Assembly: GCA_027029065.1 (NCBI GenBank)
Contig: JALVGO010000219.1
Coordinates: 1 to 9,297 of the forward strand
DNA length: 9,297 nt
Direction of reading: 5' to 3'
Source of the DNA: Sulfurovum sp.
Lineage (GTDB): Bacteria > Campylobacterota > Campylobacteria > Campylobacterales > Sulfurovaceae
Positions 645 through 9,226 of the stretch are shown here, piece after piece. A program made the position numbers and the translations under genes. How positions within the stretch are numbered: the first letter of the stretch is position 1; every line of letters begins with the position of its first letter. The notes beneath the pieces are model-generated. The model saw only the letters and a list, made by a program, of their open reading frames with translations, was not told the origin of the DNA and made no database searches.

Positions 645-2051
645 ATGCGCCTGCGATCTATATTCACCAACAGTTTCGGTATTCTGCTTTCACGCATTAC
701 CGGTCTTATTCGGGATGTGCTTATGGCATCAGCACTGGGAGCTTCTGTCTGGTCAGATATGTTCTTTATTGCATTCAAGCTGCCCAACCTTTTCCGGCGT
801 ATCTTTGCAGAAGGTGCATTTACACAGGCATTTATGCCCTCTTTTATTGCATCCCGGCACAAAGGAGTATTTGCTACTGTGATTTTCATACGGTTTCTGC
901 TCTTTTTACTCTTTTTTTCCCTAATGGTTACACTCTTTCCAGAGCCCATAACCAAACTGATGGCATGGGGATGGGAGTGGGATCTTATCGAACAGACCGC
1001 TCCCCTGACAGCCATCAACTTTTGGTATCTTGACCTGATCTTTATTGTCACTTTTTTGGCCACACTGCTTCAGTATAAAGAGCATTTTGCCACAACAGCA
1101 CTCTCTACCGCACTACTGAATATCTCGATGATCTGTGCACTCTGGCTCTATATGAAACAGGATCCCAAAACAGTCGCCTATGCACTGAGTGTCGCCGTAC
1201 TTGTCGGTGGTCTACTTCAGATCATAGCCCACCTCTATACCCTGCACCACTTCAAACTTGACCGACTGCTTATTGGCGGATGGAAATACCGAAAAAGCAA
1301 AGATGTCAAAAAAGAGACAACCCATTTCAAAAGCCTTTTCCTACCGGGGATTCTTGGAAATTCAACACCTCAAATCTCAGCATTTGTAGATACTCTCCTA
1401 GCAACCTTTCTGATGGCGGGATCGGTATCATTCCTCTTCTATGCCAACCGTGTCTTTCAGCTTCCTCTGGCACTCATTGCCATTGCTACAGCAACCGTAC
1501 TTTTCCCTACTGTATCAAAAGCACTTAAAAACGGTGAAGAGACAAAAGCGTATGAAAATCTTGCACAGGCATTCTGGCTGCTTGCTTTCCTGCTTGGTGC
1601 GGCAACACTGGGTGGCATGCTGCTTGCCGAACCTATTGTCTGGCTGCTTTTTGAAAGGGGGAAATTTACTGAGGCTGAGACCATGCAGACTGCCTATGTA
1701 CTTCAAATGTATATGATCGGGCTAATACCCTTTGGGCTTGCCAAACTCTTTTCACTCTTTCTGTATGCCTCACACCGCCATAAAAAAGCGGCAAAAGTCG
1801 CAGTATACTCACTAATAGCCTCTGTCTCTTCTTCTCTGGTATTAATGCAGTTTATGGGAGCGGCAGGGCTGGCGCTGGCGGGCAGTATCGGTGGCTGGGT
1901 ACTCTTCTTTTTTACAGTCAAAGAGGTCGGGTTTGACAAACTCTCAGCAATTGTCAAAAACAGACTCTCCCTCTACTTTGTCACTGCGATGCTCCTCTTT
2001 GGCATCTTTTTATATTATGCAGGGGCATGGATTACCACTCTGATACACTGA
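645..2051 (+). CDS. murJ: Lipid II flippase MurJ (MviN family)
   Basis: MurJ moves undecaprenyl-linked lipid II from the inner to the outer face of the cytoplasmic membrane, the step before peptidoglycan polymerisation. The 468-residue protein is hydrophobic throughout, with many membrane segments typical of the MOP exporter superfamily and a length normal for the family. The N terminus carries the family signature with SRITGLIRD (about 16-24), SDMFFIAFKLPNLFRR (37-52) and AEGAFTQAFMP (55-65). The charged cavity residues known from E. coli MurJ (R18, R24, D39, R52, R270) correspond here to R17, R23, D38, R51 and R269, all conserved with a constant one-residue shift. The ATG at 645 is chosen because AAAGAG lies 4 nt upstream and the signature begins immediately. 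It is divergent from ruvA and convergent with the PAS gene, 7 bp from that gene's stop codon, so it is probably monocistronic. Confidence 0.97.
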   Translation: MRLRSIFTNSFGILLSRITGLIRDVLMASALGASVWSDMFFIAFKLPNLFRRIFAEGAFTQAFMPSFIASRHKGVFATVIFIRFLLFLLFFSLMVTLFPEPITKLMAWGWEWDLIEQTAPLTAINFWYLDLIFIVTFLATLLQYKEHFATTALSTALLNISMICALWLYMKQDPKTVAYALSVAVLVGGLLQIIAHLYTLHHFKLDRLLIGGWKYRKSKDVKKETTHFKSLFLPGILGNSTPQISAFVDTLLATFLMAGSVSFLFYANRVFQLPLALIAIATATVLFPTVSKALKNGEETKAYENLAQAFWLLAFLLGAATLGGMLLAEPIVWLLFERGKFTEAETMQTAYVLQMYMIGLIPFGLAKLFSLFLYASHRHKKAAKVAVYSLIASVSSSLVLMQFMGAAGLALAGSIGGWVLFFFTVKEVGFDKLSAIVKNRLSLYFVTAMLLFGIFLYYAGAWITTLIH

Positions 2052-2058
2052 CCGATCT

Positions 2059-2589
2059 CTAACGATCGGCAAAACTTGCAAGTTCATCACCGTGGAAAAG
2101 CTCCATCGACATAAAATAGGGATCGTATTTATGCTCGACACCATAAAGTTCGGCATACTTTTTCTCTATCTCTTCGATAACATCAGGGTAGGCATCTCTT
2201 CTGCTGGCAATATAGCCGATGTGCTTTCCTTCACTGTCAAACTTGGGCTGAATATAGACCAATGCCCAGTAGTATGAACCGTCTCTGCAGATACTTTTGA
2301 TATAACCTCTCCAGACCTTTTTCTGCCGGATAATCTTCCACATTGCATAGTAGAGACCTTCAGGCATATCAGGATGCCGAACAATACTGTGAGGCAGTCC
2401 GACAATCTCTTTTTTACTATAGCCTGTGAAGTCCTGAAATTTTTTGTTTGCGTAAGTGATCATACCTTCAAGATCGGTTTCAGTGATCATCGGTTTACCG
2501 TCATAATGCTTCATGATCGAAGTCGGTTTCGGTTTTTGGAATGTTTCCCGCGTAAAGATATTGAGGTAAATAAATCTGCCTTCAGCCAT
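2059..2589 (-). CDS. PAS-domain redox/energy sensor, Aer/CetB type
   Basis: This is a 176-residue cytoplasmic protein built around one PAS domain (about 33-135) with a short C-terminal tail and no methyl-accepting, kinase or GGDEF output domain. It closely resembles the FAD-binding PAS of E. coli Aer and C. jejuni CetB: TDLEGMITYANKKFQDFTGY (38-57), PHSIVRHPDMP (66-76), KVWRGYIKSICRDGSYYW (91-108) and a late GYIASRRDA (125-133). The R71-H72-P73-D74-M75-P76 block corresponds to the flavin-contacting segment of Aer. By family knowledge such proteins report redox or electron-transport state to a separate chemotaxis transducer (CetA partners CetB); no such partner is present in the window. The ATG at 2587-2589 is chosen because AAGGAAAAG (2595-2603 on the minus strand) precedes it; Met26 is a weaker alternative. 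The gene is alone, and its leader holds a cyclic-di-GMP riboswitch. Flavin binding and signalling role are inferred. Confidence 0.88.
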   Translation of the reverse strand: MAEGRFIYLNIFTRETFQKPKPTSIMKHYDGKPMITETDLEGMITYANKKFQDFTGYSKKEIVGLPHSIVRHPDMPEGLYYAMWKIIRQKKVWRGYIKSICRDGSYYWALVYIQPKFDSEGKHIGYIASRRDAYPDVIEEIEKKYAELYGVEHKYDPYFMSMELFHGDELASFADR

Positions 2590-2593
2590 GTTG

Positions 2594-2620
2594 TCTTTTC
2601 CTTGTCATTGTGAAGAATGG
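2594..2620 (-). promoter_or_regulatory. Possible Shine-Dalgarno-sequestering hairpin of the PAS gene leader
   Basis: On the minus strand UUCUU (2612-2616) can pair with the AAGGAA Shine-Dalgarno core (2598-2603), one pair being U-G, around a 9-nt loop. The 52-nt stretch between the riboswitch aptamer and the start codon has no T-run, so translational control is more plausible than termination. The stem is only about five pairs, so this is a weak structural proposal. Confidence 0.25.
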
Positions 2621-2632
2621 TACTGTTATAGG

Positions 2633-2722
2633 TGATAAAGCGGCAACCCGGCTGTCTTGAATGAGATATTTATAAGACCCGTAGTTTTCCATCCCTGCTT
2701 TCCAACAGGTTTGACTTTTCAA
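2633..2722 (-). promoter_or_regulatory. Cyclic-di-GMP-I (GEMM-I) riboswitch aptamer in the PAS gene leader
   Basis: Read on the minus strand, this segment matches the GEMM-I aptamer from memory. GUCAAACC (2708-2715) leads into CCUGUU-GGAA-AGCAGG (2694-2709), a 6-bp stem capped by a GNRA tetraloop. GGGAUGGAAAACUACGGG follows (about 2679-2696; consensus roughly GGGACGCAAAGCCACGGG). A second arm GUCUU/AAGAC (2674-2678 with 2654-2658) leads to AGCCGGGUUGCC ending at 2642. A weak closing helix UGAAAA (2716-2721) with UUAUCA (2633-2638) is possible, with one mismatch. The base equivalent to Vc2 G20 is G (position 2715), favouring c-di-GMP over the cGAMP-type variant, which has A there. Vc2 C92 also appears kept. 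The Vc2 21/46 pair becomes U-G, a covarying change. The aptamer lies directly 3' of a TATAAT box and 52 nt before the PAS start codon, so c-di-GMP would control that gene; the sign of control cannot be read. Confidence 0.87.
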
Positions 2723-2728
2723 TGCGGC

Positions 2729-2734
2729 ATTATA
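2729..2734 (-). promoter_or_regulatory. -10 box for the riboswitch-PAS transcript
   Basis: A perfect TATAAT on the minus strand, preceded by TGA (TGATATAAT, close to an extended -10). Transcription would start near 2722, so the RNA would begin at the first bases of the aptamer. No strong -35 is present; AGACAA at 2752-2757 has the right 17-nt spacing but a poor match. Confidence 0.7.
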
Positions 2735-2756
2735 TCAAATCACAATTTGTTTTGTC

Positions 2757-2774
2757 TGTAGGATTTTGCCTACA
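2757..2774. repeat. Short inverted repeat upstream of the riboswitch promoter
   Basis: TGTAGG (2757-2762) and CCTACA (2769-2774) form perfect 6-bp arms around a 6-nt spacer. It lies near the -35 area of the minus-strand promoter and its right arm overlaps the left TACAA flanking the palindromic element. It could be an operator or part of the element's outer end; it lacks a T-run and so is not a terminator. Confidence 0.35.
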
Positions 2775-2940
2775 AGCCAAATCTCGAAATAGGATTCTTT
2801 GAATTTGCGTTATGCTCGTATTTGCGGGGTTTGCAGAAAATTTGAGTCGCACCCGTAGGTTCGGCGATGATTTTATGCGAAGCCCGTGAATGCGATGATA
2901 ATGCAAAGTCATGAATTTCTATTTCGAGATTTGGGTACAA
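2771..2940. repeat. 160-bp palindromic repeat element (MITE- or REP-like) flanked by TACAA direct repeats
   Basis: Perfect 16-bp terminal inverted repeats, CCAAATCTCGAAATAG (2777-2792) and its complement (2919-2934), bound an element that is self-complementary around 2855/2856 without gaps for 66 positions: about 50 Watson-Crick pairs, 8 G-U pairs (as plus-strand RNA) and 8 mismatches. The pairing continues to the centre in a shifted register (CGCACC against GGT and GCG). TACAA occurs directly outside both ends (2771-2775 and 2936-2940), as a 5-bp target-site duplication would. No protein-coding gene is credible inside. It sits between the minus-strand riboswitch promoter and the plus-strand cysS promoter without breaking either. 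The structure is seen directly; mobility or an RNA role is inferred. Confidence 0.75.
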
Positions 2941-2973
2941 CAAATATATTTCACGTTTATAGCCATTTTTCGA

Positions 2974-2979
2974 TATAAT
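2974..2979 (+). promoter_or_regulatory. -10 box of cysS
   Basis: A perfect TATAAT preceded by a T-rich tract (ATTTTTCGA), the usual promoter form in Campylobacterota. Start of transcription near 2986 would give a leader of about 27 nt containing AAAAAAGG before the ATG at 3013. Confidence 0.75.
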
Positions 2980-3012
2980 CCCGAATAATTACAGAAAAAA
3001 GGCTGATCGAAT

Positions 3013-4416
3013 ATGCTTCTCTTTGACAGTGTTACCAAAACCAAACGCACATTCGAACCTATCCATCCGAATGAAGCGTCTATCTATGTCTGCGGTCCTA
3101 CCGTTTATGATGATGCCCATCTGGGACACGCACGCAGTTCTCTCGCGTTCGACCTGCTCTCCCGTACCCTCAAAGCACTTGGCTACGAAGTGACACTGGC
3201 AAAGAACTTCACCGATATCGATGACAAGATCATCAAAAAGGTCGAAGAGACGGGCAAGAGTATGCAGGAGATCACCGACTACTATATTGAGCGTTATCTT
3301 GACGAAATGGCACAGCTTGGTGTGCAGCGTGCCGATATCGAGCCCAAAGCAACCGAATCACTCGGTGCCATAGAGCAGATGATACAGACACTTATCGACA
3401 AAGAGTGTGCCTATGTTGTCAGCAACGGGGATGTCTATTTTGACACATCCAAAGACCCGCACTATGGAGAGATCTCACACAAAGTCCATGATGATGAAGA
3501 GAACCTAAGCCGTGTTGAACACAACAGCGAAAAACGCAACCCCAAAGATTTCGCCCTATGGAAAGCCTGCAAAGGGAGTGAGGATATCTGCTTTGATACC
3601 CCCTTCTCTTCCGGACGCCCCGGCTGGCACATCGAGTGTTCAGCAATGATCGAGAAACACTTTGAAGGCAATGGCACCTACAGCATCGACATCCACGGCG
3701 GCGGGGCAGACCTGCTCTTCCCCCACCATGAGAATGAAGCAGCACAAAGCCGCTGTGCTACAGGACACGCCCTTGCCAAATACTGGATGCACAACGGGTT
3801 TGTCCAGATAGACGGTGAAAAGATGAGCAAAAGCCTTGGCAACAGCTTTTTCCTCAAAGATGCCCTCAAGGTCTATGACGGAGAGATACTGCGCTACTAT
3901 CTCAACTCGGTACACTACCGCAACGACTTCAACTTCAACGAAGAGGATCTACTCGCTGCCAAAAAACGTCTAGACAAACTCTACCGCCTCAAAAAACGTC
4001 TGCTGCCTGGCAAAGCATCCTCTGTCAACAAAGATTTCAAAGCAGCCCTGCTTGACGCGATGGCAGACGACCTCAACATCTCCGTAGCCCTTGCACACAT
4101 CGACGAGATGGTCGCCAATGCCAACGAACAGCTCGATACAAACCCCAAAGACAAAGCGCTCAAAAAAGAGACCCTCGCCAACCTCGAGTTTATCGATACC
4201 CTGCTTGGCTTTGGCGGCAAAGAGCCCTACAGCTACTTCCAGATCGGGGTCAATGAGGCGCTTAAAACACAGGTTGAAGCCATGATCGCAAAACGAACCG
4301 AAGCCAAAAAAGCCAAAGATTTCGCCACCTCCGATGCCATCCGTGACGAGCTTACCGCTATGGGCATTGCCATCATGGACACACCGGAGGGTACCGTATG
4401 GGAGAAAATATCATGA
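3013..4416 (+). CDS. cysS: Cysteinyl-tRNA synthetase
   Basis: This class I aminoacyl-tRNA synthetase charges tRNA-Cys with cysteine using ATP in the cytoplasm. The 467-residue length matches bacterial CysRS (E. coli 461). The Rossmann catalytic domain carries CGPTVYDDAHLGHARS with the HIGH-type motif HLGH at 36-39, and the KMSKS loop is at 270-274 (GEKMSKSLGN). The zinc site that selects the cysteine thiol is intact: C27, C209 (WHIECS), H238 and E242 (FPHHENEAAQ). The C-terminal helical anticodon-binding region ends with the conserved AKDFATSDAIRDEL and IMDTPEGTVW segments. The ATG at 3013 is preceded by AAGG (2999-3002) 10 nt upstream and a strong -10 box. The stop codon overlaps the start of the next gene (ATGA), indicating coupled translation with the barrel gene. 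Confidence 0.98.
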   Translation: MLLFDSVTKTKRTFEPIHPNEASIYVCGPTVYDDAHLGHARSSLAFDLLSRTLKALGYEVTLAKNFTDIDDKIIKKVEETGKSMQEITDYYIERYLDEMAQLGVQRADIEPKATESLGAIEQMIQTLIDKECAYVVSNGDVYFDTSKDPHYGEISHKVHDDEENLSRVEHNSEKRNPKDFALWKACKGSEDICFDTPFSSGRPGWHIECSAMIEKHFEGNGTYSIDIHGGGADLLFPHHENEAAQSRCATGHALAKYWMHNGFVQIDGEKMSKSLGNSFFLKDALKVYDGEILRYYLNSVHYRNDFNFNEEDLLAAKKRLDKLYRLKKRLLPGKASSVNKDFKAALLDAMADDLNISVALAHIDEMVANANEQLDTNPKDKALKKETLANLEFIDTLLGFGGKEPYSYFQIGVNEALKTQVEAMIAKRTEAKKAKDFATSDAIRDELTAMGIAIMDTPEGTVWEKIS

Positions 4417-6018: not shown

Positions 6019-6168
6019 GTTAAAAATTAAAAGTTAAAAAATGAGGAATTGGGAATGAAGAATGTTTGTATGCTTTTTTTCAAAAAGCTTTTATTGATAC
6101 CTAACAATAAAAGTATTGTGAAGCAATACAAACCTACATTCCTCATTCCTCATTCCTCATTCCTCATT
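6019..6168. repeat. Degenerate heptanucleotide repeats forming a fold-back element between pyrD and the M16 gene
   Basis: From 6019 the sequence parses into successive 7-mers: GTTAAAA, ATTAAAA, GTTAAAA, AATGAGG, AATTGGG, AATGAAG, AATGTTT. On the other side lie four perfect CATTCCT copies (6137-6164) plus CATT, the reverse complement of the AATGAGG type. The outer arms pair perfectly over 10 bp (6040-6049 with 6159-6168). Inside, GTTTGTAT pairs with ATACAAAC, and CTTTTATTG (6088-6096) pairs with CAATAAAAG (6105-6113) round an 8-nt loop. A further A-T hairpin (GCTTTTT / AAAAAGC, 6072-6088) is nested in the left arm. The block lies across the 5' end of the M16 reading frame. Confidence 0.8.
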
Positions 6169-8393: not shown

Positions 8394-9172
8394 TGAGTAC
8401 TATGAAGGGAAAAACCGCCGTTATCACAGGAGCCACCAAAGGCATCGGACTGGCAGTTGCCAAAAAATTTGCTCAAAACGGTGTCAATGTCGCATTTACC
8501 TACAACTCCAACAAAGAGGCAGCTGACAAGATTGCTGCGGAGCTTGAAGCAGAGTACGGCATCAAAGCAAGAGCCTATCCTCTCGACATCCTCGACACCG
8601 ACCAGTTCAAACCGCTCTTTGCCGCTATCGATGAAGATTTCGACCGTGTAGACTTCTTTGTCTCCAACGCCATGATCTACGGCCGTCCGGTTGTCGGCGG
8701 TTACGGCAGATTTATGAAACTACGCCCCAAAAAAGGTCTGACAAACATCTACACTGCAACAGTCGGTGCGTTTGTGGCAGGCTCGCAGGAAGCGGCAAAA
8801 CGCATGGAGAAAGTCGGCGGCGGCTCTATCGTTACACTAAGCTCGACAGGGAACCTGATCTACATCGAAAACTACGCAGGGCATGGTACTAACAAAGCAG
8901 CCGTAGAAGCCATGGCACGCTACGCAGCCGTTGAACTTGGCGAAATGGGCATCCGCGTCAACGCCGTTAGCGGCGGTCCCATCGACACCGACGCACTCAA
9001 AGCCTTCACCAACTACGAAGAGGTCAAAGCCGAAACCATCAAACGCTCCGCCCTCAACCGTATGGGAAGCCCCGAAGACCTCGCCGGCGCCATCTACTTC
9101 CTCTGCACCGACGATGCAAGCTGGATCACCGGACAGACGATTGTTGTGGATGGGGGAACGACGTTTAGATAA
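8393..9172 (+). CDS. SDR-family reductase resembling FabL-type enoyl-ACP reductase
   Basis: This 259-residue short-chain dehydrogenase has the Rossmann cofactor motif TGATKGIG (12-19), SNA at 91-93 in place of the usual NNAG, and the C-terminal WITGQTIVVDGG (244-255). Its catalytic pair is Y161 and K168, spaced Y-x6-K as in enoyl-ACP reductases rather than the classical Y-x3-K. The stretch ENYAGHGTNKAA followed by NAVSGGPIDTDALKAF (190-205) resembles Bacillus FabL from memory, including GGxIDTDALK. FabL enzymes perform the NADPH-dependent last step of each fatty-acid elongation cycle. Whether this is the main enoyl reductase or a second one beside FabI cannot be seen here. The ATG at 8393 has AGGAG (8381-8385) 7 nt upstream and overlaps dapA by 1 nt; ATG 8402 is a weaker alternative. 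The gene stop codon merges into a heptad repeat. The SDR call is firm; the FabL role is likely. Confidence 0.9.
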   Translation: MSTMKGKTAVITGATKGIGLAVAKKFAQNGVNVAFTYNSNKEAADKIAAELEAEYGIKARAYPLDILDTDQFKPLFAAIDEDFDRVDFFVSNAMIYGRPVVGGYGRFMKLRPKKGLTNIYTATVGAFVAGSQEAAKRMEKVGGGSIVTLSSTGNLIYIENYAGHGTNKAAVEAMARYAAVELGEMGIRVNAVSGGPIDTDALKAFTNYEEVKAETIKRSALNRMGSPEDLAGAIYFLCTDDASWITGQTIVVDGGTTFR

Positions 9173-9226
9173 TTAGGAATTAGGAATTAGGAATTAGGAA
9201 TTAGGAATTAGGAATTAGGAATTGAG
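9171..9226. repeat. Heptanucleotide tandem repeat, seven AATTAGG copies plus a variant
   Basis: Seven perfect copies of AATTAGG (9171-9219) are followed by the variant AATTGAG (9220-9226). The first copy overlaps the reductase TAA stop codon (9170-9172). The motif belongs to the same heptad family as the AATGAGG / AATTGGG units near 6040-6060. Perfect repeats of this kind are prone to copy-number change; here the variation would lie outside coding sequence but upstream of the next promoter. Confidence 0.95.

Follow-up and report, generated by a model that had tools for sequence, protein, structure and literature searches.

A c-di-GMP-I-clan riboswitch aptamer in front of an Aer/CetB-type PAS sensor gene in Sulfurovaceae, a family with few flagellar and chemotaxis genes

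Why should a gene for a protein that resembles energy-taxis sensors lie directly behind a riboswitch for a second messenger, in a bacterium that, judging from its relatives, would not swim? The question is raised by a stretch of 9,297 nucleotides from Sulfurovum sp., hereafter the window, in which an earlier note had placed a GEMM-I aptamer in front of an Aer/CetB-like PAS gene and had proposed that c-di-GMP is thereby joined to aerotaxis input. The analysis described here leads us to consider it likely that, in a non-motile lineage, an orphan flavin PAS sensor, small, cytoplasmic and of the Aer/CetB type, is under the control of a class I c-di-GMP riboswitch. The computed part of this reading comprises the fold of the aptamer, its pocket residues, its placement between a -10 element and the start codon, its recurrence in related genomes and the near-absence of flagellar and chemotaxis genes.

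The aptamer lies on the minus strand at 2638..2724, as delimited by RF03167, and is composed of P2, P3 and a three-way junction, with P1 almost absent. Its key bases on this strand are G20 (2715), U21 (2714), U44 (2691), G46 (2689), A47 (2688) and C92 (2643). When the whole window was searched by cmscan with 4227 Rfam families, RF03167 (c-di-GMP-I-GGC, clan CL00126) was the only family with an above-cut-off match, at 2724-2638 of the minus strand with an E-value of 1.9e-12 and 59.8 bits, just 0.8 bits over its cut-off of 59. A search of 2600-2760 showed a second CL00126 family, presumably RF01051, to be over its own cut-off as well, although the overlap rule keeps it from being printed. Matches to MIR166, IS009 and HgcG in the window were far under their own cut-offs and were rejected. 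Our custom covariance model R1 scores the aptamer at 73.5 bits, with the window itself being part of its training set. In the window RNA, P2 and P3 form every one of their 18 core pairs, three of them as G-U wobbles, and the P2 loop is GGAA, a GNRA tetraloop of the kind found in 166/172 aptamers. The tertiary pair between P2 and P3, which is C-G in 170/172 aptamers, is present in the window only as a U44-G83 wobble, U44 being found in this one aptamer (1/172). The P1 helix expected of RF01051 is reduced to two consecutive pairs at best. In an alignment of 38 aptamers including the window, 99.0% of the cells are paired and 12 of the 18 core pairs have changed on both sides, a result matched by 0/500 shuffles, and sliding the alignment by one to three columns brings the paired fraction to 25-50%. 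The score, the complete core and the covariation confirm that the element is a genuine c-di-GMP-I-clan riboswitch aptamer. The GEMM-I claim of the earlier note is thus borne out, and the Rfam covariance check that it had proposed came out in its favour, with RF03167 and one unnamed family of the clan over their cut-offs.

For the wider comparison, aptamer loci were taken from the best-scoring places of an RF01051 search of the family and from the place lists of five genomes (G001-G005); 174 matches, the weak remnant L093 included, were merged into 155 unique aptamers, and 38 sequences trained R1. The 3',3'-cGAMP (GEMM-Ib) riboswitch class, as in Geobacter, has a fold common with c-di-GMP-I and carries A at position 20. 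In contrast, G is found at this position in 155/155 unique aptamers, which led us to reject cGAMP specificity; A is found at position 47 in 155/155 and C at position 92 in 152/155. The window has all three bases, which favour c-di-GMP over cGAMP, and with this pocket kept the aptamer reads as the canonical c-di-GMP type, whatever its Rfam name. By these residues c-di-GMP would be the ligand of the window aptamer. In the cited parts of the literature, key roles in recognizing the ligand are given to G20, C92, A47 and A48, the tertiary pair C44-G83 is described as conserved (PMC3764141), and a G20A mutant that binds cGAMP is mentioned (PMC7288161).

The floor of the pocket is where the family departs from the reference aptamer. 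The pair 21-46 is C-G in 151 of the 155 unique aptamers, U-G in 2 (the window and L093) and G-C in the remaining 2, whereas the RF01051 aptamer Vc2 of Vibrio cholerae has G21-C46. The Sulfurovaceae aptamers otherwise share with Vc2 the P2/P3 fold, the GNRA loop, C44-G83 (U-G in the window) and G20/A47/C92, as well as targets tied to surface and signalling; unlike Vc2, they have a weak P1, leaders with few terminator-like sites and Aer-type PAS genes as repeated targets. Eighteen order-level aptamers (15 loci, 13 outside the 175 family genomes) all carry G20, C21-G46, A47 and C92, a uniformity that is biased because these are top hits of R1, itself trained on C21-G46 copies. Taken together, these features make the Sulfurovaceae aptamer look like a c-di-GMP sensor in which the pocket-floor pair is inverted. 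The affinity of the window copy may be low, since both U21-G46 (2/155) and U44 (1/172) are rare among its relatives.

The presumed regulated gene, at 2059..2589 on the minus strand, encodes a stand-alone PAS protein of 176 aa (Pfam PAS_3, 1.3e-14). Its best solved relative is the PAS domain of E. coli Aer (8dik, E 4.8e-23) and the third is a full-length chain named 'Aerotaxis receptor' (31cj, 3.5e-20). The flavin contacts of Aer named in the cited part of PMC9668731 are H53, R57, M69, W70, R115 and N85. The first five align with H67, R71, M83, W84 and R130 of the PAS protein, each invariant or at least 90% conserved in 42 rows, and N85 is replaced by S99, so that five of the six named contacts are kept. 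Homology and contact residues together suggest that the protein would bind FAD and report redox or oxygen state. With CetB of C. jejuni the likeness is one of architecture and comes from published description, the cited part of which presents CetB as PAS-only and needed for energy taxis, its partner CetA bringing the HAMP and signalling domains (PMC2628428). Unlike CetB, the PAS gene of the window has murJ and cysS as neighbours and no cetA-like gene, and it differs from both Aer and CetB in that few Sulfurovaceae genomes have MCP or CheW partners and that its expression would be under a riboswitch. An Aer/CetB-type PAS gene is thus found directly downstream of the aptamer in a Campylobacterota genome, as had been claimed. 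Aer-type PAS proteins are matched in 162/175 Sulfurovaceae genomes among the matches listed, and Sulfurovum riftiae is among the named organisms in the 120 PAS relatives listed. A PAS "fusion" in genome G049 was rejected by eye, its long frame being antisense to a metH-like frame and running into the PAS gene.

How could the aptamer act on this gene? A consensus scan, the sole source for this element, places a -10 element, TATAAT with an upstream TG (extended -10), at 2729..2734 of the minus strand, and a weak -35-like hexamer, CAGACA, at 2753..2758 with an 18-nt spacer; the same scan finds 3 promoter-like sites in 2500-3020 compared with 1.5 expected in shuffles. From the TATAAT at 2734-2729, transcription could plausibly begin near 2723-2721 and would thus almost coincide with the beginning of the aptamer, in line with the start proposed in the earlier note. 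The 5' strand of P1 would then be limited to about four bases. This close promoter is not a rule, because a -10-like box within -8 to 4 of the aptamer is shared by only 70/150 loci, about twofold over local background. In the register 14-93, P1 pairing across 154 aptamers is 0.578 versus 0.466 for shuffled partners (z 6.5), an excess which shows that some of these aptamers do have a P1, as a weak but covarying helix.

The leader from C92 to the start codon is 53 nt long (2590..2642, minus strand), has no intrinsic terminator and carries a Shine-Dalgarno-like AAGGAA at 2598..2603, 8 nt before the ATG, as read from the sequence. With ORFs called by a simple rule, 146 of the 155 leaders could be compared, 7 without a called ORF and 2 leaders under 20 nt being left out. 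Control by intrinsic terminators was rejected, as none (0) is found in 2500-3020 of the window and a simple rule finds terminator-like sites in 2/146 leaders. A possible anti-aptamer element in the window, CCAUUCU at 2613..2619 of the minus strand, would pair with aptamer positions 40-46 (GGGAUGG) with a duplex energy of -8.0 kcal/mol, which is not significant against shuffled leaders (p 0.07 and 0.13). Across the 146 leaders, a general element of this kind is weak, segment 40-50 having a mean z of -0.20 and reaching p<=0.05 in 7% of them, and the same duplex test gives nothing for four other aptamer segments (mean z 0.02 to 0.34). Among 13 PAS leaders at the metH locus described below, two of them near-identical, the mean z is -1.46 and p<=0.05 is reached in 4/13 (L225, L077, L221 and L222). 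No conserved expression platform was found in the 6 leaders of the cysS locus (mean z -0.13), and no consistent switch in 15 chosen leaders folded with versus without the aptamer fixed, a comparison in which L048 is to be disregarded because its fixed fold is off register. We envisage that c-di-GMP binding would lock P2 and P3 together and that the locked aptamer would alter how accessible the start site is, which lies 53 nt further on. Since no terminator was found, control is by exclusion probably at translation, and the sign leans slightly to OFF because possible anti-aptamer elements are present in a few relatives.

The genes around the riboswitch allow its history to be followed in related genomes. 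The PAS gene is flanked by murJ (645..2051, plus strand), its convergent neighbour, and by cysS (3013..4416, plus strand), its divergent neighbour, both identified by Pfam, and the conserved order is murJ, PAS, (riboswitch), cysS, a 169-aa protein without Pfam match and DHODH. The CysRS of the window is up to 93% identical to that of genomes of the Sulfurovaceae set among the matches listed, which places the window in this set. A genome scan found PAS relatives in five MAGs that bear the label Sulfurovum, Sulfurovaceae or Epsilonproteobacteria, and in 2/5 of these loci a riboswitch lies directly before the PAS gene, with 61.6 bits in L001 and 53.6 bits in L002, the latter under the RF03167 cut-off. 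The arrangement murJ-PAS-cysS is found in 15 genomes including the window; 6 of them carry the riboswitch (the window, G001, G002, G100, G109 and G069, the last with a second PAS gene behind it), 1 carries a remnant and 8 have neither. The remnant, in G137, is a degraded riboswitch (L093:1395-1492, 23.3 bits) that occupies precisely this position ahead of the cysS-linked PAS gene. In the six genomes with the closest CysRS among the matches listed, the fetched stretches of at most 1500 bases on each side of cysS contain no riboswitch; in 5 of these 6, murJ adjoins cysS with no PAS match between, and the sixth is cut by a contig end. At a second place, metH-PAS-lpxD, the riboswitch occurs in 7 of 11 fetched loci, which were hand-chosen, three of them (G117, G068 and G126) for a known riboswitch, and L223 holds a 9.3-bit trace; the neighbours were assigned by Pfam for L215 and by eye for the other loci. 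This pattern of presence and absence at two PAS loci indicates that the pairing has been gained or lost more than once. The survey of relatives that the earlier note had suggested therefore shows that the arrangement of riboswitch and PAS gene recurs.

The PAS genes belong to a larger set of riboswitch targets. Riboswitches are present in 106/175 Sulfurovaceae genomes, with up to 21 per genome, among the matches listed in the RF01051 search, and in the wider order R1 matches 79/398 sampled genomes, family members included, again among the matches listed. GGDEF proteins are matched in 150/175 Sulfurovaceae genomes; all 106 riboswitch genomes are among them and 0/25 GGDEF-negative genomes have a riboswitch, among the matches listed, an association with a hypergeometric probability of 3e-12 that overstates independence because the genomes are related. 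We compared 130 downstream proteins, cut to 350 aa, with the window, the PAS-chosen loci L086-L115 and repeats left out. Their leading domains are PilJ (10), PAS (9), CarboxypepD_reg (9), LysM (8), NlpC/P60 (8), CAP (8) and HD_5 (5), accompanied by adhesin-like, cadherin-like, SdrD-like and efflux domains. Two PAS-chosen loci, L001 and L002, were retained among the 130 because they represent entries of the unbiased place lists, which leaves 7 of the 9 PAS members unaffected by that choice. Judged by its domains, this gene list looks like a c-di-GMP regulon. In G001-G005, for which the place lists are complete, an Aer-type PAS gene lies downstream at 7/46 riboswitch places, compared with a rough expectation of about 0.08 if genes occur at one per kb and PAS genes number 20. 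Each of the five genomes had been reached by way of its PAS gene, and since in G001 and G002 this gene is itself a riboswitch-bearing one, the cautious figure is 5/44; the sequences fetched cover all but two of the 46 places, these two scoring below the RF01051 cut-off, and some places are at contig ends. The c-di-GMP-I riboswitch class is already known, and the large regulon has Aer-type PAS genes as an unexpected repeated target; we found no report of a riboswitch regulon across Sulfurovaceae in the open-licence literature searched. The regulon yields a candidate list of c-di-GMP targets for a little-studied group, and it raises a testable question about the role of Aer/CetB-type flavin sensors in bacteria that are unable to swim.

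Two further features of the regulon were observed. A GGDEF diguanylate cyclase gene (PF00990, L058:223-1408) is itself preceded by a riboswitch of the same kind, a candidate for a direct feedback loop. Tandem aptamers, 137-176 nt apart from start to start, occur before one gene at L083, L084, L069, L167, L040, L044, L187 and L210, and their target genes often have a CGGG lipobox-like start as judged by eye.

The most direct alternative to our reading is the one from the earlier note, that the amount of an energy-taxis (aerotaxis) sensor is governed by c-di-GMP, which would in this way steer swimming. It is encouraged by the Aer PAS domain as closest solved relative, by the role of the PAS-only CetB in the energy taxis of C. 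jejuni (PMC2628428, cited part) and by two riboswitch-bearing genomes, G114 and G121, that have one MCP match each. However, flagellin is matched in only 2/175, MCPsignal in 4/175 and CheW in 2/175 Sulfurovaceae genomes, in searches whose controls matched in E. coli and B. subtilis, so that at the level of the family the HAMP/MCP partner, CheW and flagella of a CetA/CetB system are nearly all missing. Many of the genomes are multi-contig drafts, in which single absences prove little, and it is the family-wide pattern that carries the argument. The sole genome with all three marks, G141 (4 flagellin, 18 MCP and 12 CheW matches), has 20 matches to Aer-type PAS but, among the matches listed, none to the riboswitch. 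The cited part of PMC5401914 describes flagella as absent from the genus Sulfurovum and the family as non-motile, although Mcp, CheB and CheR are reported there from the family as well. With this near-absence of flagellin, MCP and CheW, the aerotaxis reading was rejected and the proposed junction of c-di-GMP with aerotaxis input is not supported; we regard it as very improbable. G141 itself may be a motile outlier or a misplaced genome.

Two other alternatives concern the aptamer. It could be a relic or a weakly functional riboswitch, decaying in front of a PAS gene that no longer needs c-di-GMP control. Its nearly lost P1, its off-consensus U21 and U44, the degraded copy at the same place in G137 and the 8 of 15 orthologous loci without a riboswitch all agree with decay. 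Nevertheless, every core pair forms in the window, the off-consensus bases still pair as wobbles and the pocket residues are intact. A weak P1 is moreover common in the set, 46/154 aptamers having at most one pair, and one of the weak-P1 aptamers, L095, still scores 89.2 bits. We therefore consider a relic unlikely. A variant aptamer for some other ligand, whether the Rfam GGC variant or a new specificity arising from the inverted C21-G46 pair (U21-G46 in the window), appears to us quite unlikely. By E-value, as reported by cmscan, RF03167 is the best Rfam family both in the window and in seven further aptamers from six loci, and G21 and C46 are named among the key binding residues in the cited part of a simulation paper (PMC9049102). 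Yet the RF03167 consensus has G at 47, together with G21-C46, and "GGC" would name positions 20, 47 and 92, whereas the window and all 155/155 aptamers have A, not G, at model position 37 (Vc2 47), together with G20; true membership in the GGC variant was rejected on this ground. The GGC label arises because the tool ranks by E-value. In bits, RF01051 outscores RF03167 for some copies (76.4 vs 67.3 for G132:C20), and for G001:C28 it scores lower (59.9 vs 61.6). The distribution of the riboswitches, which follows GGDEF genes, and the match of the downstream genes to a c-di-GMP regulon also speak against another ligand. As a separate matter, automatic annotation may mislabel A47 aptamers as the RF03167 GGC variant.

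What remains as the preferred reading is a c-di-GMP riboswitch on a flavin PAS sensor outside chemotaxis. In this arrangement the sensor would report redox or oxygen state to a non-chemotaxis partner, which would most plausibly be part of the c-di-GMP and surface network of a sessile bacterium, and the riboswitch probably ties the PAS sensor to a sedentary, surface-living programme rather than to swimming. We further speculate, as a tentative and rather doubtful extension, that an ancestor of the Sulfurovaceae lost swimming and that its Aer/CetB-type redox sensors, retained and increased in number, were newly connected to the c-di-GMP network, c-di-GMP setting their expression through riboswitches. 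Such sensors may in turn inform c-di-GMP enzymes or the surface machinery of the redox state and so close a redox/c-di-GMP feedback loop without chemotaxis, and the inverted C21-G46 pair would mark a lineage-wide version of the aptamer.

The window also contains several repeats. Between the riboswitch promoter and cysS, an imperfect palindrome of about 160 bp (2774-2936), with 65-nt arms that are 77% complementary, belongs to a dispersed MITE-like repeat found in 44/175 Sulfurovaceae genomes, with up to 8 matches each, counted on both strands, and the best 97% identical. When 53 listed copies of this repeat were compared with 19 riboswitch places, two lay 44 and 57 nt from a riboswitch (G076 and G002), a proximity that may be due to chance. 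Two perfect tandem heptamers were also observed, CATTCCT repeated 4.6 times at 6137-6168 before an M16 peptidase gene, possibly inside its long TTG-start frame, and AATTAGG repeated 7.6 times at 9171-9223 after an enoyl-ACP reductase gene.
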